Below are positions 13,894-36,003 of a DNA stretch of 48,657 nucleotides, piece after piece. The notes under the pieces are model-generated. The model had not been told where the DNA came from. It ran no database searches and saw nothing but the letters and a program-made list of their open reading frames with translations. The stretch is taken from assembly GCA_946804195.1 (NCBI GenBank), contig CAMPEU010000010.1, positions 1 through 48,657 on the forward strand. Direction: 5' to 3'. The position numbers and the translations under genes are program-made. Source of the stretch: an uncultured Candidatus Saccharibacteria bacterium. GTDB lineage: Bacteria; Patescibacteriota; Saccharimonadia; Saccharimonadales; Saccharimonadaceae. Each line of letters starts with the position of its first letter. Within the stretch, counting starts at the first letter, position 1.

Positions 13894-16800
13894 ATGGATT
13901 TTAATAGTCGCTACGCAAAACTAAACGATGCGCAGAAATCTGCTGTCGATGCTATCGATGGGCCAATAATGGTAATCGCCGGACCGGGCACTGGCAAGAC
14001 CGAGTTACTAAGCATGCGCGCGGCAAACATATTGAAAAAAACCGACGTACTACCCGAAAACATTTTGTGCCTGACATTCACCGACGCTGGCTCTATCGCT
14101 ATGCAAAAACGCCTTACGAGTATCATCGGTCGCGAAGCATACAACGTATCAATTCACACGTTTCATGCTTTTGGTTCAGAAATTATGAATCGCTATCGTG
14201 AGTATTTTTATAATGGCGCCGACTTCCAGCTAGCTGATGACCTCGCACGTCATCGAATCATCACCGAAATACTAGATTCACTAGAATACAATAATCCTTT
14301 GCGCAGCCAAATGAATGGTACATACACGGCGATGAATGATATCATGGCGGCGATCTCAGACCTCAAACGAGCTGGCTTGACGGACGAAGAATTTCGACAG
14401 TTATTAGACATAACTCAGGCCACTGCCGAGATAGCTGGGAAAAATCTCGGAAAGGTCTTTTCGCAACGAATCAGCAAGGGGACGCGTGATGCGCTCGCCG
14501 ACACCCTGACGGCTATCGAAGCAATCGAGGAAGATACGCCTATCCCGAGTATGATCCGACTGCGCGATGTCCTGGCGCGAAGTATTCATCACGCCGTCGA
14601 AGATGCCGATAACCATGAGAAGGTAACGCCCCCCATCACTGCCTGGAAGAATGAATGGATGACAACCGACGTTGATGGAGCGAAAGTGCTCAAAATCCAA
14701 AAAGCACTTCCAAAGCTTCGCGCCCTTAACCATATCTACAGCCTTTACCTCCAGACAATGTTAAAAGAGGAAATGATTGATTACGACGATATGATCATGC
14801 AGGTTGTTCATGCGATAGAAGTGCACGATGACTTACGCTACGATCTACACGAAAAATATCAATATATCATGGTCGATGAATTCCAAGATACAAACATGGC
14901 ACAAATGCGCATTCTGCATAATCTCATCAATAATCCTGTCGTGCAAGATACGCCAAATCTTCTCGTTGTCGGTGATGACGATCAAGCGATCTACGGTTTT
15001 CAAGGTGCCGAAATTAACAACATTCTTGGACTCAAAGAACTACTGCCAAAGACAGCTTTGATCACGCTCACCGATAATTATCGTAGTAACCAGCCCGTCC
15101 TCGACGGCGCACGCGAAGTGATTACTCAAGGAGAAAACCGTCTAGAAACACGCATTCCCGAGCTCGATAAAACCCTTGCGTCACATGTCTCGCACCAAAC
15201 GCCAACTACCGAGATCGTTAATTTTACGTCACCGCACGACGAAAGAAAATGGATAACAAAGTCTATCGATGACCTTATAAATAAAGGAACTAAACCAAGC
15301 GAAATTGCAGTTATCGCCCGAAAACACAAGGACCTTATCTCGCTGTTGAGCTACATGGCAAATAAAAATATTCCGATCAGTTACGATCGTCGCGACAATG
15401 TTTTAGAGGATGATGTTATCAAGCAGCTGGTACTTGTCGGCAATATCGTTCATGATTTGAGTGTCGGTAGACACAACGAAGCCAACATACATTTGTCGGA
15501 ACTCATTAGCCACCCAGCGTGGGGGATAGATCCTGCGACCATTTGGGAAATTAGCCTCAACGCATACAAAAATCGCCTTCAGTGGCTAGAGGTTATGCAA
15601 GAGCATGCGGCCACGAAGGAACTATTTGCATGGCTCGTCGCTACCGCAAAAGCATCTCAACACCTACCCCTCGAACGCATCATTGATATTCTGGTCGGAC
15701 ATACAGCACCTGATGGCGCAAAAGCATCACCACTCAAAGAATATTATTTCTCAGACAAAAAAATGCATGATGATTCAGCAAACTATGTCGTTCACCTAGA
15801 AAATCTCTCGGCTATTCGTCAGCGTCTCCGCGATCATGTTACTGGCACAATGTCGCCAAAGTTAGTTCATTTTCTGGAATTTATTGAGGAAAACCAACAA
15901 GCGGGCATTCAAATTACCAGCCTTCGGCATGTGGGGGAAGATAACAATGCCGTACAGCTACTGAGCGCACACGGTTCCAAAGGCCTGGAATTTAATCATG
16001 TATTTATTGTTAATGCTACGGACAAGATGTGGGGAGAGAAGGCGAGCGGTAGATCCTCTGTAATTTCATTCCCGCCACACCTACGTCTTCGACAAAACAA
16101 TAGTGATTATGATGAACGATTACGATTATTCTACGTTGCAATGACCCGAGCCAAATACGGACTACACATCTCATACGCAAACGAAAACGATACGGCAAAG
16201 GAAATGTTACAAGCCTCATTCCTTCTGAATAGTTCATTTCCACACGATCAGATCAACGAATCTTCGACCGATGCGACAACCAAAGAAGCGGCTGAACAAA
16301 TGTGGTATGCGCCAATAGTCAACATTCCGTCTGCGACAATGAAGGAGCATCTCGCTCCAATCCTCGAACATTACAAACTCAGCGCAACCCATGTGAATAG
16401 CTTTATCGATGTTACCAACGGCGGACCACAACAATTCCTCCTCAATACACTACTTCGGTTTCCGAGCGCGTCGAGTGCGGCCGCTAACTACGGTACAGCA
16501 ATCCATCGAGCACTTCAGCGTGCACACGAACACTTACGCGCAACTGGCTCACAGCAACCCGAAGAAGACATACTACATGAATTCGAAAAACAGCTCGACC
16601 AACTCACATTTTCCGATGATGAACGACGTCGTTATCTCCAGCAGGGCTGTGACGCCCTACGTACCTTCTTGCACGAACGATATGCCGGCTTTTCAAATAA
16701 ACAGCTGCCGGAACTAGACTTTGCACGACAAGACGTCGTGATTAACGATGTCCACCTAACGGGGAAATTGGATGTCGCCGAAATAGACGATGCATCACAC

Positions 16801-17178
16801 AGCATACGCGTTATCGATTACAAAACAGGGAGCGCACTCACTGACTGGAATAAGGGTGATGCGTACAAAAAGATGAAGGCACACAAATACCGCCAACAGT
16901 TGCTATTCTACAAGCTACTCATCGAACACTCCCGTGATTGGCGAAAATACACTATGAACGAAGGAGTTTTACAATTCGTCGAGCCAGACCAATCAAACCA
17001 AATTATTGATCTGCGGCTCGCAGATATTGACGCAACAGAGCTCGACCGTTTCACTCGATTAATCGATATCGTTTGGCGACACATTCAGGACCTTTCTTTT
17101 CCGGACACATCCACATACGAAAATACGATCGAAGGTATCCAGCAATTCGAAGAAGATTTACTGGCTGAAAAAATCTAG
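13894..17178 (+). CDS. UvrD/Rep-type DNA helicase fused to a RecB-like nuclease
   Basis: A 1094-residue SF1A helicase with C-terminal PD-(D/E)XK nuclease, probably for double-strand-break repair. Helicase motifs in order: GPGTGKT (30-36), VDEFQDT (about 327), GDDDQAIYGFQGAE (about 358-371), TDNYRS (about 393), SAHGSKGLEF (about 690), YVAMTRAK (about 746). The nuclease shows LTGKLDVAEID and the catalytic VIDYKTGS (about 970), matching RecB/AddA. One polypeptide carries both, as in AddA or AdnA/AdnB; no partner subunit is adjacent. TATAAT sits 8 nt before the ATG, so the transcript is probably leaderless. Confidence 0.9.
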   Translation: MDFNSRYAKLNDAQKSAVDAIDGPIMVIAGPGTGKTELLSMRAANILKKTDVLPENILCLTFTDAGSIAMQKRLTSIIGREAYNVSIHTFHAFGSEIMNRYREYFYNGADFQLADDLARHRIITEILDSLEYNNPLRSQMNGTYTAMNDIMAAISDLKRAGLTDEEFRQLLDITQATAEIAGKNLGKVFSQRISKGTRDALADTLTAIEAIEEDTPIPSMIRLRDVLARSIHHAVEDADNHEKVTPPITAWKNEWMTTDVDGAKVLKIQKALPKLRALNHIYSLYLQTMLKEEMIDYDDMIMQVVHAIEVHDDLRYDLHEKYQYIMVDEFQDTNMAQMRILHNLINNPVVQDTPNLLVVGDDDQAIYGFQGAEINNILGLKELLPKTALITLTDNYRSNQPVLDGAREVITQGENRLETRIPELDKTLASHVSHQTPTTEIVNFTSPHDERKWITKSIDDLINKGTKPSEIAVIARKHKDLISLLSYMANKNIPISYDRRDNVLEDDVIKQLVLVGNIVHDLSVGRHNEANIHLSELISHPAWGIDPATIWEISLNAYKNRLQWLEVMQEHAATKELFAWLVATAKASQHLPLERIIDILVGHTAPDGAKASPLKEYYFSDKKMHDDSANYVVHLENLSAIRQRLRDHVTGTMSPKLVHFLEFIEENQQAGIQITSLRHVGEDNNAVQLLSAHGSKGLEFNHVFIVNATDKMWGEKASGRSSVISFPPHLRLRQNNSDYDERLRLFYVAMTRAKYGLHISYANENDTAKEMLQASFLLNSSFPHDQINESSTDATTKEAAEQMWYAPIVNIPSATMKEHLAPILEHYKLSATHVNSFIDVTNGGPQQFLLNTLLRFPSASSAAANYGTAIHRALQRAHEHLRATGSQQPEEDILHEFEKQLDQLTFSDDERRRYLQQGCDALRTFLHERYAGFSNKQLPELDFARQDVVINDVHLTGKLDVAEIDDASHSIRVIDYKTGSALTDWNKGDAYKKMKAHKYRQQLLFYKLLIEHSRDWRKYTMNEGVLQFVEPDQSNQIIDLRLADIDATELDRFTRLIDIVWRHIQDLSFPDTSTYENTIEGIQQFEEDLLAEKI

Positions 17179-17212: not shown

Positions 17213-17241
17213 TTGACAAATATACTATGCTTGAGTATAAT
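17213..17241 (+). promoter_or_regulatory. Consensus sigma70-type promoter of the structured-RNA unit
   Basis: TTGACA (17213-17218), 17-nt spacer, TATAAT (17236-17241). Both hexamers are perfect, the strongest-looking promoter in the window; the start would be near 17248. No protein gene follows for 600 nt. Confidence 0.85.
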
Positions 17242-17260
17242 AATTCCTTGGTACAGAGGT

Positions 17261-17311
17261 GTATTCAGCGGAAATGATGAGAGTATGTATGTTATCATTT
17301 CCGCTGTATAC
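17261..17311 (+). repeat. Strong 5' hairpin of the structured RNA
   Basis: A 13-bp perfect stem (17266-17278 with 17294-17306), extended by GTAT/ATAC beyond one T-T mismatch, with a 15-nt loop. No U-tract follows, so it is not a simple terminator. It begins about 13 nt after the predicted transcription start. Confidence 0.7.
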
Positions 17312-17353
17312 TTTCCTGTTGCACATTTTTAATAACATGAAAGTTTCTGCAAG

Positions 17354-17481
17354 GCAGATGTAGCTCAGTGGTAGAGCGCCGTAGAACCCAGGTGGTCGAC
17401 TGTATAGTACGAGGGGCCCCTCTGCTATGCTACGCCACAGGCTCTTCTACGGGGTCGCGGGTTCGAACCCCGCCGTCTGCT
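17354..17481 (+). tRNA. Aberrant tRNA-like gene with an expanded anticodon arm
   Basis: A complete tRNA frame is visible: acceptor GCAGATG (17354-17360) pairs with CGTCTGC (17474-17480), D arm GCTC/GAGC (17363-17377), T arm GCGGG-TTCGAAC-CCCGC (17457-17473), U73, no encoded CCA. The anticodon stem CCGTA/TACGG is continued to 8 bp (CCGTAGAA/TTCTACGG), and the 7-nt loop is replaced by about 64 nt that fold into a long interrupted hairpin: GTGGT/GCCAC, then GTATAG/CTATGC, then GAGG-GGCC-CCTC at the tip. No placement of a 7-nt loop in the flanks gives U33. The insert is too short for a group I intron. It may be an unusual intron, or a non-decoding tRNA mimic. Confidence 0.6.
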
Positions 17482-17491
17482 CGTTTTTGTA

Positions 17492-17559
17492 CATGCGGGA
17501 AACCGCACATGAGGATGTGAAATTATCACCCTCGAATGGAGAGAGCATACCCCTCCATT
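17492..17559 (+). repeat. Three consecutive small hairpins between the tRNA-like genes
   Basis: Hairpin a (17492-17511) has GCGG-GAAA-CCGC with a GNRA tetraloop plus CAT/ATG below a bulge. Hairpin b (17511-17533) is GAGG/CCTC and GTGA/TCAC around AATTA. Hairpin c (17535-17559) is AATGGAG/CTCCATT with an 11-nt loop. They fill the entire spacer. Confidence 0.55.
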
Positions 17560-17563
17560 CATT

Positions 17564-17635
17564 GCGCGTGTAGCTCATTGGCAGAGCATCCGCCCATCAA
17601 GCGGAAGGTAGCGGGTTCAATTCCTGCCACGCGCA
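17564..17635 (+). tRNA. Atypical tRNA-like gene, anticodon position reads ATC
   Basis: A 72-nt cloverleaf: acceptor GCGCGTG/CACGCGC, D arm GCTC/GAGC, anticodon stem TCCGC/GCGGA, T arm GCGGG-TTCAATT-CCTGC, A73, no encoded CCA. The anticodon loop is CCATCAA, so position 33 is C rather than the near-universal U, and 34-36 reads AUC (nominally Asp GAU) with A34, which is rare in bacteria. Asp identity (G73, GUC) is absent. D and T arms closely resemble those of the tRNA-like gene at 17354, suggesting a common origin. Confidence 0.6.
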
Positions 17636-17656
17636 CTAACTTTCATGTAATAATCT

Positions 17657-17690
17657 TGTGATGACATCCGCCAGCCAGCGTGTCATCACA
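17657..17690 (+). repeat. 10-bp perfect hairpin in the structured RNA
   Basis: TGTGATGACA (17657-17666) pairs with TGTCATCACA (17681-17690) around a 14-nt loop rich in C and G. Confidence 0.6.
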
Positions 17691-17692
17691 GG

Positions 17693-17782
17693 CTAGTGAT
17701 CATGACGGAAAACCGGTCCCCCGCCGGATGAGTACTCATTCACTAGGGGTGGAGAGCGCTGTTCATTCAGCGCTCTCCACCC
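17693..17782 (+). repeat. Paired domain plus 14-bp perfect hairpin near the 3' end
   Basis: CTAGTGA (17693-17699) pairs with TCACTAG (17740-17746), enclosing CCGG/CCGG and an ATGAGTACTCAT palindrome. Directly after it, GGGTGGAGAGCGCT (17747-17760) pairs perfectly with 17769-17782 around 8 nt. The second hairpin is followed by AAAACAATTTTT and might be a first terminator. Confidence 0.6.
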
Positions 17783-17794
17783 AAAACAATTTTT

Positions 17795-17826
17795 CCGTTG
17801 CACAGTAAAAGCAACGGTTATTTTTT
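17795..17826 (+). terminator. Rho-independent terminator of the structured-RNA unit
   Basis: CCGTTGC/GCAACGG stem (17795-17801 with 17811-17817), 9-nt loop, then TTATTTTTT. Confidence 0.8.
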
Positions 17827-17846
17827 ATCACGATATAATAGATACT

Positions 17847-18794
17847 ATGACTAATTTTTGGCACAACCTACCACGCCCGTTTTTCGCACTCGCTCCTCTG
17901 GAGGCGGTTACTGATGTCGTCTTTCGTCATGTCGTAGCAGCCGCAGCACCACCCGATTTATTTTTCACCGAATTTACGAACGCAACCGGCTGGGTTCATG
18001 CTGGCGACAAGGCAATTGGTGGACGCTTAGTAAAAACAAGTGACGAACATCCCATTATTGCGCAGCTGTGGGGCGCCGACGCAGATGCAATGGAAAAAAT
18101 GGCAATGCATTGTGCCGAACTGGGCTACGATGGAATTGATATAAACATGGGCTGTCCCGACGCCAGCGCCGTGAAAAGTGGCGGTGGAGCCGGAATGATA
18201 CTCAATCCCGAGAATGCCGCAGCTATCATCGCAGCAGCAAAAAAATCAGGCCTGCCCGTTAGTGCTAAAACACGCCTAGGATACAGCAGGGTAGACGAGT
18301 GGCCGCAATGGCTAGAACATTTACTGCGTCAAGATATCGTTAACCTAACAATCCATCTACGGACCAAAAAAGAAATGAGCAAAGTTCCCGCGCACTTTGA
18401 ATTAATCCCCAAAATCAAAAAAATGCGTGACGAGGTTGCACCAAATACACTTCTCACAATCAACGGCGACATCAATAATCGCACGCACGGGCTTGAACTC
18501 GTGCAGCGATATGGTGTTGACGGAATTATGATTGGGCGAGGTGTTTTTTTGAATCCATATACATTCGAAGAAAATCCCAGGGAGCATACTCGCAAAGAAA
18601 TGCTTGATCTATTACGACTACAACTAGAGCTGTATGAAAAATATGCCGATCAAACAGGCAGGCCATTCGATACATTAAAACGATTCTTCAAGATTTACAT
18701 ACGTGATTTCGAGGGTGCAGCAGAACTCCGTGATAAATTAATGCACACAAAAGATACCGATGAAGTGCGCGCGCTCATTGCCAGGGTAGATTAA
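17847..18794 (+). CDS. dus: tRNA-dihydrouridine synthase
   Basis: The FMN-dependent enzyme reduces uridine to dihydrouridine in the tRNA D loop. The 315-residue TIM barrel shows LAPLEAVTDVVFR at the start, INMGCPDASAVKSGGGAGM with the catalytic Cys near 103, SAKTRLGY, NGDINN and IMIGRGVFLNPYTF. The usual GCPxxxxxxxGxG pattern is kept. The start is fixed by TATAAT 7 nt before the ATG (leaderless), directly after the terminator of the structured RNA. The last 4 nt overlap the end of the convergent secreted-protein gene. Which tRNA position it modifies is not visible. Confidence 0.92.
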   Translation: MTNFWHNLPRPFFALAPLEAVTDVVFRHVVAAAAPPDLFFTEFTNATGWVHAGDKAIGGRLVKTSDEHPIIAQLWGADADAMEKMAMHCAELGYDGIDINMGCPDASAVKSGGGAGMILNPENAAAIIAAAKKSGLPVSAKTRLGYSRVDEWPQWLEHLLRQDIVNLTIHLRTKKEMSKVPAHFELIPKIKKMRDEVAPNTLLTINGDINNRTHGLELVQRYGVDGIMIGRGVFLNPYTFEENPREHTRKEMLDLLRLQLELYEKYADQTGRPFDTLKRFFKIYIRDFEGAAELRDKLMHTKDTDEVRALIARVD

Positions 18795-30603: not shown

Positions 30604-30636
30604 TTAATATATCTCGCAACGTGGCCCCTTATACAG

Positions 30637-30665
30637 TTGACAATAGTCTATTTCTATGGTAAAAA
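30637..30665 (+). promoter_or_regulatory. Promoter of the 62-aa membrane protein
   Basis: TTGACA (30637-30642), 17-nt spacer ending TGG, then TAAAAA. The leader would be about 30 nt, ending in GAGAGGAGCGGGGTT before the ATG. Confidence 0.5.
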
Positions 30666-30700
30666 TAGGATAGTTCCATCAACACGAGAGGAGCGGGGTT

Positions 30701-30889
30701 ATGACCCCTGAAGGTGTTTACTGGGCACAGATGATGTTTGGGTGGACACTCGGACCATTATTCGGAATTGTCTTCCTTATCATCGTCCTGACGCTCATCG
30801 GAAATGGCTGGCAACGCTTGCGGCGCGCCATCGGGCGGCCAAAAAGCTCCGCCACGCACGACGACCAGCTGGACGTTCGGTCTACGTAA
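30701..30889 (+). CDS. Small membrane protein, 62 aa
   Basis: One transmembrane helix (LGPLFGIVFLIIVLTLIG, about 17-34) followed by a basic, Arg-rich cytoplasmic tail (WQRLRRAIGRPKSS). Unlike most neighbours it has its own -35/-10 promoter, a leader with a strong AGGAG site and its own terminator; it also looks richer in G and C. Function unknown. Confidence 0.65.
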   Translation: MTPEGVYWAQMMFGWTLGPLFGIVFLIIVLTLIGNGWQRLRRAIGRPKSSATHDDQLDVRST

Positions 30890-30896
30890 CACCAAC

Positions 30897-30939
30897 AATC
30901 CCGGCCCGTTACCCAGGTGGTAGCGCGGTCGGGATTTTT
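30897..30939 (+). terminator. Rho-independent terminator of the 62-aa gene
   Basis: AATCCCGGCC (30897-30906) pairs with GGTCGGGATT (30927-30936, one G-T pair), then TTT. The 20-nt loop contains ACCCAGGTGG. Confidence 0.8.
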
Positions 30940-30966
30940 GCATTAATCACGTATAATACGATATAG

Positions 30967-35037: not shown

Positions 35038-35104
35038 TGCGGTTACCTCCTTTCAAATAGTACAGATTATCCGATAAAAATATTATAGCATTTTTACTGT
35101 AATT

Positions 35105-35153
35105 AGGCAATGTAAAACCCCCGGTCATTCACCGGGGGAGTTACACCTTGCCT
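35105..35153 (-). terminator. Terminator of the hydrolase gene at 35152
   Basis: Core CCCCCGGT-GAATG-ACCGGGGG read on the minus strand, followed by TTTTACATT, inside a longer inverted repeat (AGGCAA...TTGCCT) that reaches the stop codon. Confidence 0.8.
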
Positions 35154-36003
35154 AGGAGGTGTGCCACGTATCGAAATACTCGCTCTGAAGCAACTGGACA
35201 AATTCCCAATTGTTCTGGCTGAACGCACAATGCGCCGCTTGAACATCGAGTAGAGTGAGATCGATCCAACTCTGCCAATCTCTTGCCGCGCTTGGCTTGA
35301 CGACCAAATTGTGCAATAAGCACTGAATATACGTCGTCCGAATACCATCATGCGACTGACATGCGCGCGCCAGCGAACCACTTCGTGATACATGAATCAT
35401 CCAGTGAATCTTTTCCGCCCAAAGCGAAATCGGAAAACCCGCCAAGCGCTGACGAGCCCCTCGCTGAACCTGCCACCGATAATTGTCATGATTAGTCGGC
35501 ATATCCGGCGGAACCGAGATATGATTCCATGGCGGTACAATAACGGGCGCCTTGATACATGATGGCAAAGCCGAAAATGCGTTCACCATCGCACTACTTC
35601 CCAATAGAAACGCCCGTGGATTCGCTATGCTTTTCAACCCACTAGGGGCATCGACGATAACCGCCTCGAGCAGATCAGGGTCATGATACTTGCGCAATTC
35701 CCTCATCAAAAACGGCGTCAACATTCCACCCTGCGATGCACCAAAAACTCGTATCGGTTCCCCGACGTGATCACGAACATCTGCCGTGGCTCGTGCAACA
35801 ATTAAATCAGGACGAAACCGACGACCATACGCATTGTATGCCCGAACCTGTCCTGGCAGACAGTATGCAATCGATGCAAACTGATCCACACCATGACTCT
35901 GCATACCAGCCAAACATATCGTTACACCCGGACCACCGAGGCTCCTGTGAGTCTTCGAAAACACGTGCTTTTCAACACCACTCGTGAACTTGTTCACGTT
36001 CAT
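35152..36003 (-). CDS. Alpha/beta-hydrolase-like protein
   Basis: About 283 residues with an RVFGASQGGMLTP nucleophile elbow (GxSxG) and AVIVDAPSGL after the next strand. The C-terminal acid and His are not certain (candidates in SHDGIRTT and WHTS). No signal peptide is evident. The ATG at 36003 is only 2 nt after AAGAGG; the in-frame GTG at 35997, 8 nt after it, may be the true start. Its strong private terminator sets it apart from most neighbours. Substrate unknown. Confidence 0.7.
   Translation of the reverse strand: MNVNKFTSGVEKHVFSKTHRSLGGPGVTICLAGMQSHGVDQFASIAYCLPGQVRAYNAYGRRFRPDLIVARATADVRDHVGEPIRVFGASQGGMLTPFLMRELRKYHDPDLLEAVIVDAPSGLKSIANPRAFLLGSSAMVNAFSALPSCIKAPVIVPPWNHISVPPDMPTNHDNYRWQVQRGARQRLAGFPISLWAEKIHWMIHVSRSGSLARACQSHDGIRTTYIQCLLHNLVVKPSAARDWQSWIDLTLLDVQAAHCAFSQNNWEFVQLLQSEYFDTWHTS

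Follow-up and report, generated by a model that had tools for sequence, protein, structure and literature searches.

A predicted, strongly folded RNA with tRNA-shaped modules between the helicase and dus genes of Candidatus Saccharibacteria: an apparently undescribed family of unassigned function

The gap between a DNA-repair helicase gene and dus in the genome of a Candidatus Saccharibacteria bacterium, from a group of ultra-small parasites, probably encodes one transcribed, strongly folded RNA, which bears tRNA folds as structural modules and belongs to a lineage-specific family found at this locus in the Saccharibacteria. Its conservation, its position, its fold with pairing and covariation, and its loss of tRNA function are established by comparison, at the level of sequence alone. 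Co-transcription of the parts is only inferred—from promoter, terminator, and pairing—because there are no expression data. The family appears to be undescribed and has no assigned function; no description of such an RNA was found in the literature, which was searched in open-access papers only. The window, that is, the whole stretch of DNA that was analysed, has a length of 48,657 nucleotides, and the unit occupies positions 17213–17826. Features are on the plus strand unless noted otherwise. The unit is chromosomal and is flanked by two housekeeping genes, both supported by synteny: upstream, the gene of a UvrD/PD-(D/E)XK helicase-nuclease (13894–17178; Pfam UvrD-helicase, UvrD_C, and PDDEXK_1) and, downstream, dus (17847–18794; Pfam Dus, 155 bits). 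The latter encodes a tRNA-dihydrouridine synthase, which acts on the D loops of tRNAs. Ordinary tRNAs, Asp-GTC among them, are encoded elsewhere in the window's own genome, which is G000 of the comparison set. A phage origin was considered and rejected, the only phage matches, which span 10% of the query, being to Streptomyces phage genes for tRNA-Asp; a plasmid origin was rejected as well, with no plasmid matches. The pattern of the 5′ domain matched nothing in viral contigs. A preliminary description of the window had held every other gap to be shorter than about 300 bp, which is contradicted by a stretch of 363 nt without any ORF of at least 80 aa (30604–30966). This stretch comes after a glutaredoxin-like gene.

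The unit begins with a promoter of the form TTGACA-N17-TATAAT (17213–17241), with TTGACA at 17213–17218 and TATAAT at 17236–17241. It is followed by a 5′ hairpin (17252–17320, z −6.6) that features an outer UACAG...CUGU pairing, a 15-bp inner stem, and an inverted repeat at 17261–17278/17294–17311. The GCACATT box (17321–17327) is located between this hairpin and a long-range closing helix. In many relatives the box reads GYACWTT; in both cases it was read from the sequences without a statistical test. Beyond the closing helix, three hairpins are predicted at 17655–17692 (outer stem of 12 bp, z −5.4), 17693–17746 (CUAGUGA...UCACUAG, z −2.0), and 17747–17782 (15 perfect pairs, z −9.0). The unit ends in an intrinsic terminator (17796–17826), in whose predicted fold CGUUGC pairs with GCAACG ahead of UUAUUUUUU. 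It was missed by an automatic scan because its loop measures 9 nt. Most of what the preliminary description had stated about these linear parts is borne out: The promoter is perfect, with 12 of 12 consensus matches and a spacer of 17 nt; the terminator is clear, with CGTTGC/GCAACG and then TTATTTTTT in the DNA; and the strong hairpins, for which stems of 13, 10, and 14 pairs had been given, come close to this with 15 bp (17747–17782), 12 bp (17655–17692), and 15 bp (5′ hairpin). The claimed lack of a credible protein gene stands as well, the longest open frame in 17213–17826 having at most 62 codons and no plausible ORF led by a Shine–Dalgarno (SD) site being present.

The 581 nt of 17246–17826 fold with −248.5 kcal/mol, compared with a mean of −176 kcal/mol (sd 6.7) for shuffled sequences. 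This corresponds to a z of −10.8, and none of 100 shuffles folds as well. The fold lies 4.7 sd below a G+C-corrected background of 314 other segments taken from both strands of the contig, and none of these sampled segments folds as well. The second-lowest energy among the scanned segments, −217 kcal/mol, occurs at 35101–35681 on the minus strand, largely over an ORF. Taken separately, the hairpins of the unit have z values from −2.0 to −9.0. The minimum free energy (MFE) and centroid folds of the unit concur: A closing helix of 11 bp encloses tRNA-like fold 1, three hairpins (17494–17561), and tRNA-like fold 2, while the three further hairpins and then the terminator lie outside of it on the 3′ side. 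The stretch between the two tRNA-like folds (17482–17564) folds with a z of −3.7. In an Rfam scan of 17213–17826, a check proposed at the outset, tRNA is the sole family reaching its cut-off; GOLLD, ROOL, OLE, and all remaining Rfam families give no covariance-model match at the locus.

The closing helix is formed by ACAUGAAAGUU (17335–17345) and AACUUUCAUGU (17638–17648), which pair in both the MFE and the centroid fold. With only 11 bp, it is not significant when searched alone (p = 0.27), and its support comes from comparison rather than from a search of the single sequence. In a partner-swap test over 14 units, swapped 5′ and 3′ parts pair far less well than those of the same unit (p = 5e-5), and the result is retained when the test is restricted to the genus (p = 1e-4). 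Searches of wide regions in single sequences are mostly not significant, G003 has no clear closing helix, and there is no second copy of the same helix elsewhere in the window. In related genera, an ACAG...CTGT helix of at least 13 bp occurs in 10 of 28 further gaps, with 0.07 expected. Over 16 distinct units of these genera, 96% of the closing-helix cells are paired, compared with 30–48% in slid-partner controls, and both partners change in 8 of 12 pairs, a count that 0 of 500 shuffles reach. Since these 16 units were selected for having the helix, more weight falls on the covariation of the inner pairs and on the shuffle count in the 28-gap test. The helix of the other genera, GACAGnnAUAGUG...CACUAUnnCUGUC, lies directly 5′ of the terminator hairpin. 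Its GACAG...CUGUC sequence is lacking in the window's clade, which has ACAUGAAAGUU/AACUUUCAUGU there. Two copies of ACUUUC and one of GAAAGU are present in this clade (17310–17315, 17339–17344, and 17639–17644). The extra ACUUUC stands right behind the 5′ hairpin in the three closest genomes and could compete for the same GAAAGU; that this competition constitutes a co-transcriptional switch is speculation.

In relatives, the gap was located by following helicase and dus. Comparable units are present in all nine genus members in which the gap is readable and, beyond the genus, in several genera and a second family; the gap of G001 runs off the end of its contig. The common plan consists of a promoter, a 5′ hairpin, a GYACWTT box, the 5′ strand of the closing helix, tRNA-like folds and/or an ORF of 45–60 aa, the 3′ strand of the closing helix, and a terminator. 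The unit of the window fits this plan by its helicase–dus position, promoter, 5′ hairpin, closing helix, and terminator. Most relatives feature a TTGAC...TATAAT-like promoter immediately 3′ of the helicase stop, and many of their units likewise end in a hairpin plus a U-rich tail. The 5′ domain of the window's unit is present in two other species of the genus, and its hairpin is kept, with compensating changes, in G009 and G006. Among the nine genus members, the gap carries a single tRNA fold except in G000 and G009, with two each, and in G006, with three. The fold of G007, whose insert exceeds the length that the Rfam search can accommodate, was assigned by eye. Of the other genera, a part features a tRNA fold (g9, g14, g16, g34, g43, g51, g53, and g63). 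G026, from another family, combines a tRNA fold, a Cys-rich ORF, and GACAGACGCG/CGCGUCUGUC in a unit read across two contigs that overlap at their ends. The helicase–dus gap is nearly empty in G014 and G023. Tandem pairs of closed units occur in one gap in G048 (L107, reverse, 1070–2230), G022 (L052, 160–1020), and G094 (L198, reverse, 440–1180). Because related units diverge so much, position and plan are the grounds on which their interiors are taken as homologous.

Most relatives have an SD site and a start codon of their own for the ORF of 45–60 aa. Within the genus, an SD-led small ORF follows the tRNA fold in six of nine members; it is missing from the window's genome and from the two others with the same 5′ domain. 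Two types of ORF, alpha-helical and Cys-rich, occupy the same slot. Several ORFs of the helical type are 35–54% identical across genera, and six have the motif Q...QxV[KR]NxD in common. One small ORF of G048 carries an apparent signal peptide. The small ORFs have no Pfam or NCBIfam match above cut-off and one weak PHROG match. The main rival reading builds on this ORF: The RNA would chiefly be the structured mRNA of a small-protein gene, with tRNA folds and closing helix tuning or protecting translation, and the version of the window, whose clade would have lost the ORF, would be a remnant. It draws on the presence of the helical or Cys-rich frame in most relatives and on the ORFs of G001 and G013, which are 46% identical although they come from different genera. 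Three related genomes, however, have lost the ORF, yet their RNA folds very strongly and carries two or three tRNA-likes, and there are helix-closed units with little or no coding room—the first tandem units of G022 and G094. In addition, since the ORF is missing in the window's clade, the RNA cannot act there through the protein of the ORF. We regard this reading as unlikely but as one that still has to be reckoned with.

The tRNA-like fold 1 (17354–17481) features intact acceptor, D, and T arms and U73. Its anticodon arm is extended (17379–17452), and, as judged by alignment and fold, a structured insert of 58 nt (17387–17444), or 64 nt by a second count, replaces the anticodon loop; the junction at this insert leaves neither U33 nor a 7-nt loop. 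The tRNA-like fold 2 (17564–17635) is a perfect cloverleaf with A73. Its anticodon loop, CCAUCAA, has C33 and no U33, and ARAGORN assigns it to Asp-ATC. The Rfam tRNA scores of 49.2 bits (fold 1) and 64.4 bits (fold 2) exceed the RF00005 cut-off of 29, in agreement with the two noncanonical tRNA-like folds described earlier. A 7-nt anticodon loop with U33 is absent in both folds, and a 3′ CCA is not encoded in either, with CGU and CUA following position 73. Over 23 tRNA-likes, pairing extends to 98.2% of the acceptor and T-stem cells, with covariation in 11 of 12 pairs, and every T loop reads UUCRA. The anticodon arm, by contrast, is not kept. As assigned by eye from folds and alignments, it carries long inserts in G000, G009, G002, and G007, tetraloops in G114 and G003, loops of 5 or 6 nt in the second tRNA-like of G009 and in G001, and 7-nt loops without U33 in the second of G000, the first of G006, and G005. 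A normal 7-nt loop with U33 is retained in the second and third of G006, in G004, and in G094. CCA is missing in 25 of 27 tRNA-likes, all but those of G024 and G132b from genus g16, and is encoded in all 61 other distinct tRNAs of the loci examined. The class II CCA-adding enzyme, PF01743—the sole enzyme family tested for CCA addition—was found in 0 of 13 genomes (the window's own and 12 relatives), whereas 10 of 10 bacterial controls were positive. Lacking CCA, this enzyme, and for the most part a usable anticodon arm, the tRNA-likes should, as far as can be predicted from sequence, not be charged and would hence be neither working nor decaying tRNAs. In view of the retained normal loops and the two encoded CCAs, it remains possible that a few function as tRNAs.

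The two CCA-encoding tRNA-likes of genus g16 both lie in the gap: That of G024 (L047, reverse strand, 1311–1406) has a long variable arm, and that of G132 (L176, 1351–1421) is an odd Cys-GCA-like one. Another odd tRNA-like, with an insert in the anticodon arm and without CCA, is found at L155 2407–2511 (G000 contig C18:3606–3710) amid small hypothetical genes and not at the helicase–dus locus. A role as aminoacyl donor for Fem-type ligases or similar was considered and is unlikely without CCA.

An ordinary tRNA cluster with decaying pseudo-tRNAs and chance structure in the spacers would account for the tRNA labels given by ARAGORN and Rfam and for the likeness of some tRNA-likes to known types, such as those of G004 and G114, which resemble tRNA-Pro; a tRNA-Pro-like group was the only one that a comparison with the nearest ordinary tRNAs singled out. 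Decay should strike all arms, however, whereas here the acceptor and T stems are 98% paired and covary, anticodon and CCA are lost selectively next to these intact stems, and CCA is missing almost only at the helicase–dus locus; the z of the fold and the covariation of the closing helix stand against chance structure. This explanation is very improbable. More improbable still are working tRNAs that have introns or unusual shapes and undergo splicing or repair, a reading suggested by the long anticodon-arm inserts of fold 1 and of its counterparts in G009, G002, and G007: Removal of the insert yields no 7-nt loop with U33 in G000 or G009, CCA is not encoded, the PF01743 enzyme was not found, and ordinary isoacceptors are present. 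Least credible is a tmRNA-like rescue RNA with tRNA-like domain and reading frame in one closed molecule, for although tRNA fold, short ORF, and paired ends do occur together in several relatives, including G026, an ordinary tmRNA is matched by Rfam on another contig of the G000 genome (C17:853–1251), the ORFs of the relatives have their own start and SD site, charging is precluded without CCA, and the unit of the window has no ORF.

The preferred reading remains that of a single folded RNA with tRNA folds as structural modules. Pairing of the 5′ and 3′ parts would close the molecule, and the enclosed tRNA-shaped domains would serve as structural modules, not as tRNAs. RNase P should cleave them poorly, and they would therefore stay in the long RNA. 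The same frame of RNA would in most relatives hold a short ORF with its own SD site; in the window's clade, this ORF would have been lost, with two or three tRNA folds instead. As the most likely action, it is inferred that closing helix and tRNA folds form a scaffold that resists nucleases, as a natural equivalent of the engineered tRNA scaffold, and that the tRNA elbow may dock tRNA-binding proteins such as Dus, TruB, or EF-Tu. The single transcript, its stability and resistance to processing, and the docking are all inferences. The preliminary description had suggested either a single ornate RNA or a precursor with special processing, and it had looked to conservation and covariation for a decision. 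The units at the same gap in relatives support this proposal, as do the partner-swap result and the covarying pairs of the closing helix and the tRNA folds, which covary in the absence of CCA; a full-length transcript has not been demonstrated. The small-protein ORF predicted in the RNA of most relatives and the tRNA folds that should be unchargeable go beyond that description.

Put forward only tentatively is a broader reading, by which the units are an undescribed, Saccharibacteria-specific class of bacterial RNA. Complete but unchargeable tRNA folds would have been recruited repeatedly, as building blocks, into a closed RNA that also harbours rapidly changing genes of small proteins, and the class would amount to a naturally occurring tRNA scaffold and to a tmRNA counterpart of independent standing. 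If true, a phylum whose members are tiny epibionts with few genes spends at least 0.6 kb on an RNA family that takes up tRNA folds time and again and deprives them of their part in translation. This would make the locus, next to dus, one of the rare instances in which nature has converted tRNAs into structural elements more than once. Because ordinary tRNAs encode CCA and the PF01743 enzyme is apparently absent, a tRNA that has lost CCA would stand out clearly as non-translational. In the phylum, the lack of CCA may mark such tRNAs, which would make tRNA exaptation directly testable across many genomes.

Of the known systems compared, tmRNA, YrlA, GOLLD/ROOL, and the engineered tRNA scaffold each resemble the helicase–dus RNA in individual features, but the defining features that were tested fail. 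Like tmRNA (RF00023), it unites, in relatives, a tRNA-like part and a reading frame in one RNA with joined ends. In tmRNA, the two ends of the molecule itself come together as the tRNA-like part, which can be charged, whereas the helicase–dus RNA carries complete tRNA folds, without CCA, inside a separate closing helix. The tmRNA model has no match at the locus, and a tmRNA-type tag frame without its own start is absent, both from the ORF-less window and from the relatives, whose frames are initiated by themselves. YrlA, the bacterial Y RNA (RF02553), features a helix of its two ends around a tRNA-like module, and a helix of the ends enclosing one or more such modules is what both RNAs have in common. 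In the Rfam search, YrlA gave no match in the window and a weak one in G006, of 32.8 bits with a cut-off of 69. Identity with a Y RNA was rejected on this score and because the partner, TROVE/Ro60, was not found in 21 of 21 genomes, with a positive control. GOLLD, ROOL, and OLE are large, highly folded RNAs of poorly understood function, and the linker region of GOLLD sometimes contains tRNAs (PMC12286853). The helicase–dus RNA differs from them in having no Rfam match to these families and in being chromosomal and not part of a phage tRNA array. In the engineered tRNA scaffold, a tRNA fold that is intact elsewhere has an RNA in the position of its anticodon loop (PMC3753655), like the insert in tRNA-like fold 1; the former is man-made, and the latter is natural and without CCA. 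The nearest precedent is the pseudo-tRNA tRNAOther of B. cereus. According to the accessible part of its description, it is a single tRNA fold of normal size that is iron-regulated, poorly aminoacylated in vitro, non-translational, and transcribed within a larger RNA ending at an intrinsic terminator, and that part reports no closing helix, no ORF, and no recurrent recruitment (PMC3399842). What tRNAOther and the helicase–dus RNA would have in common is, within a larger RNA with an intrinsic terminator, a tRNA-like element that does not serve translation.
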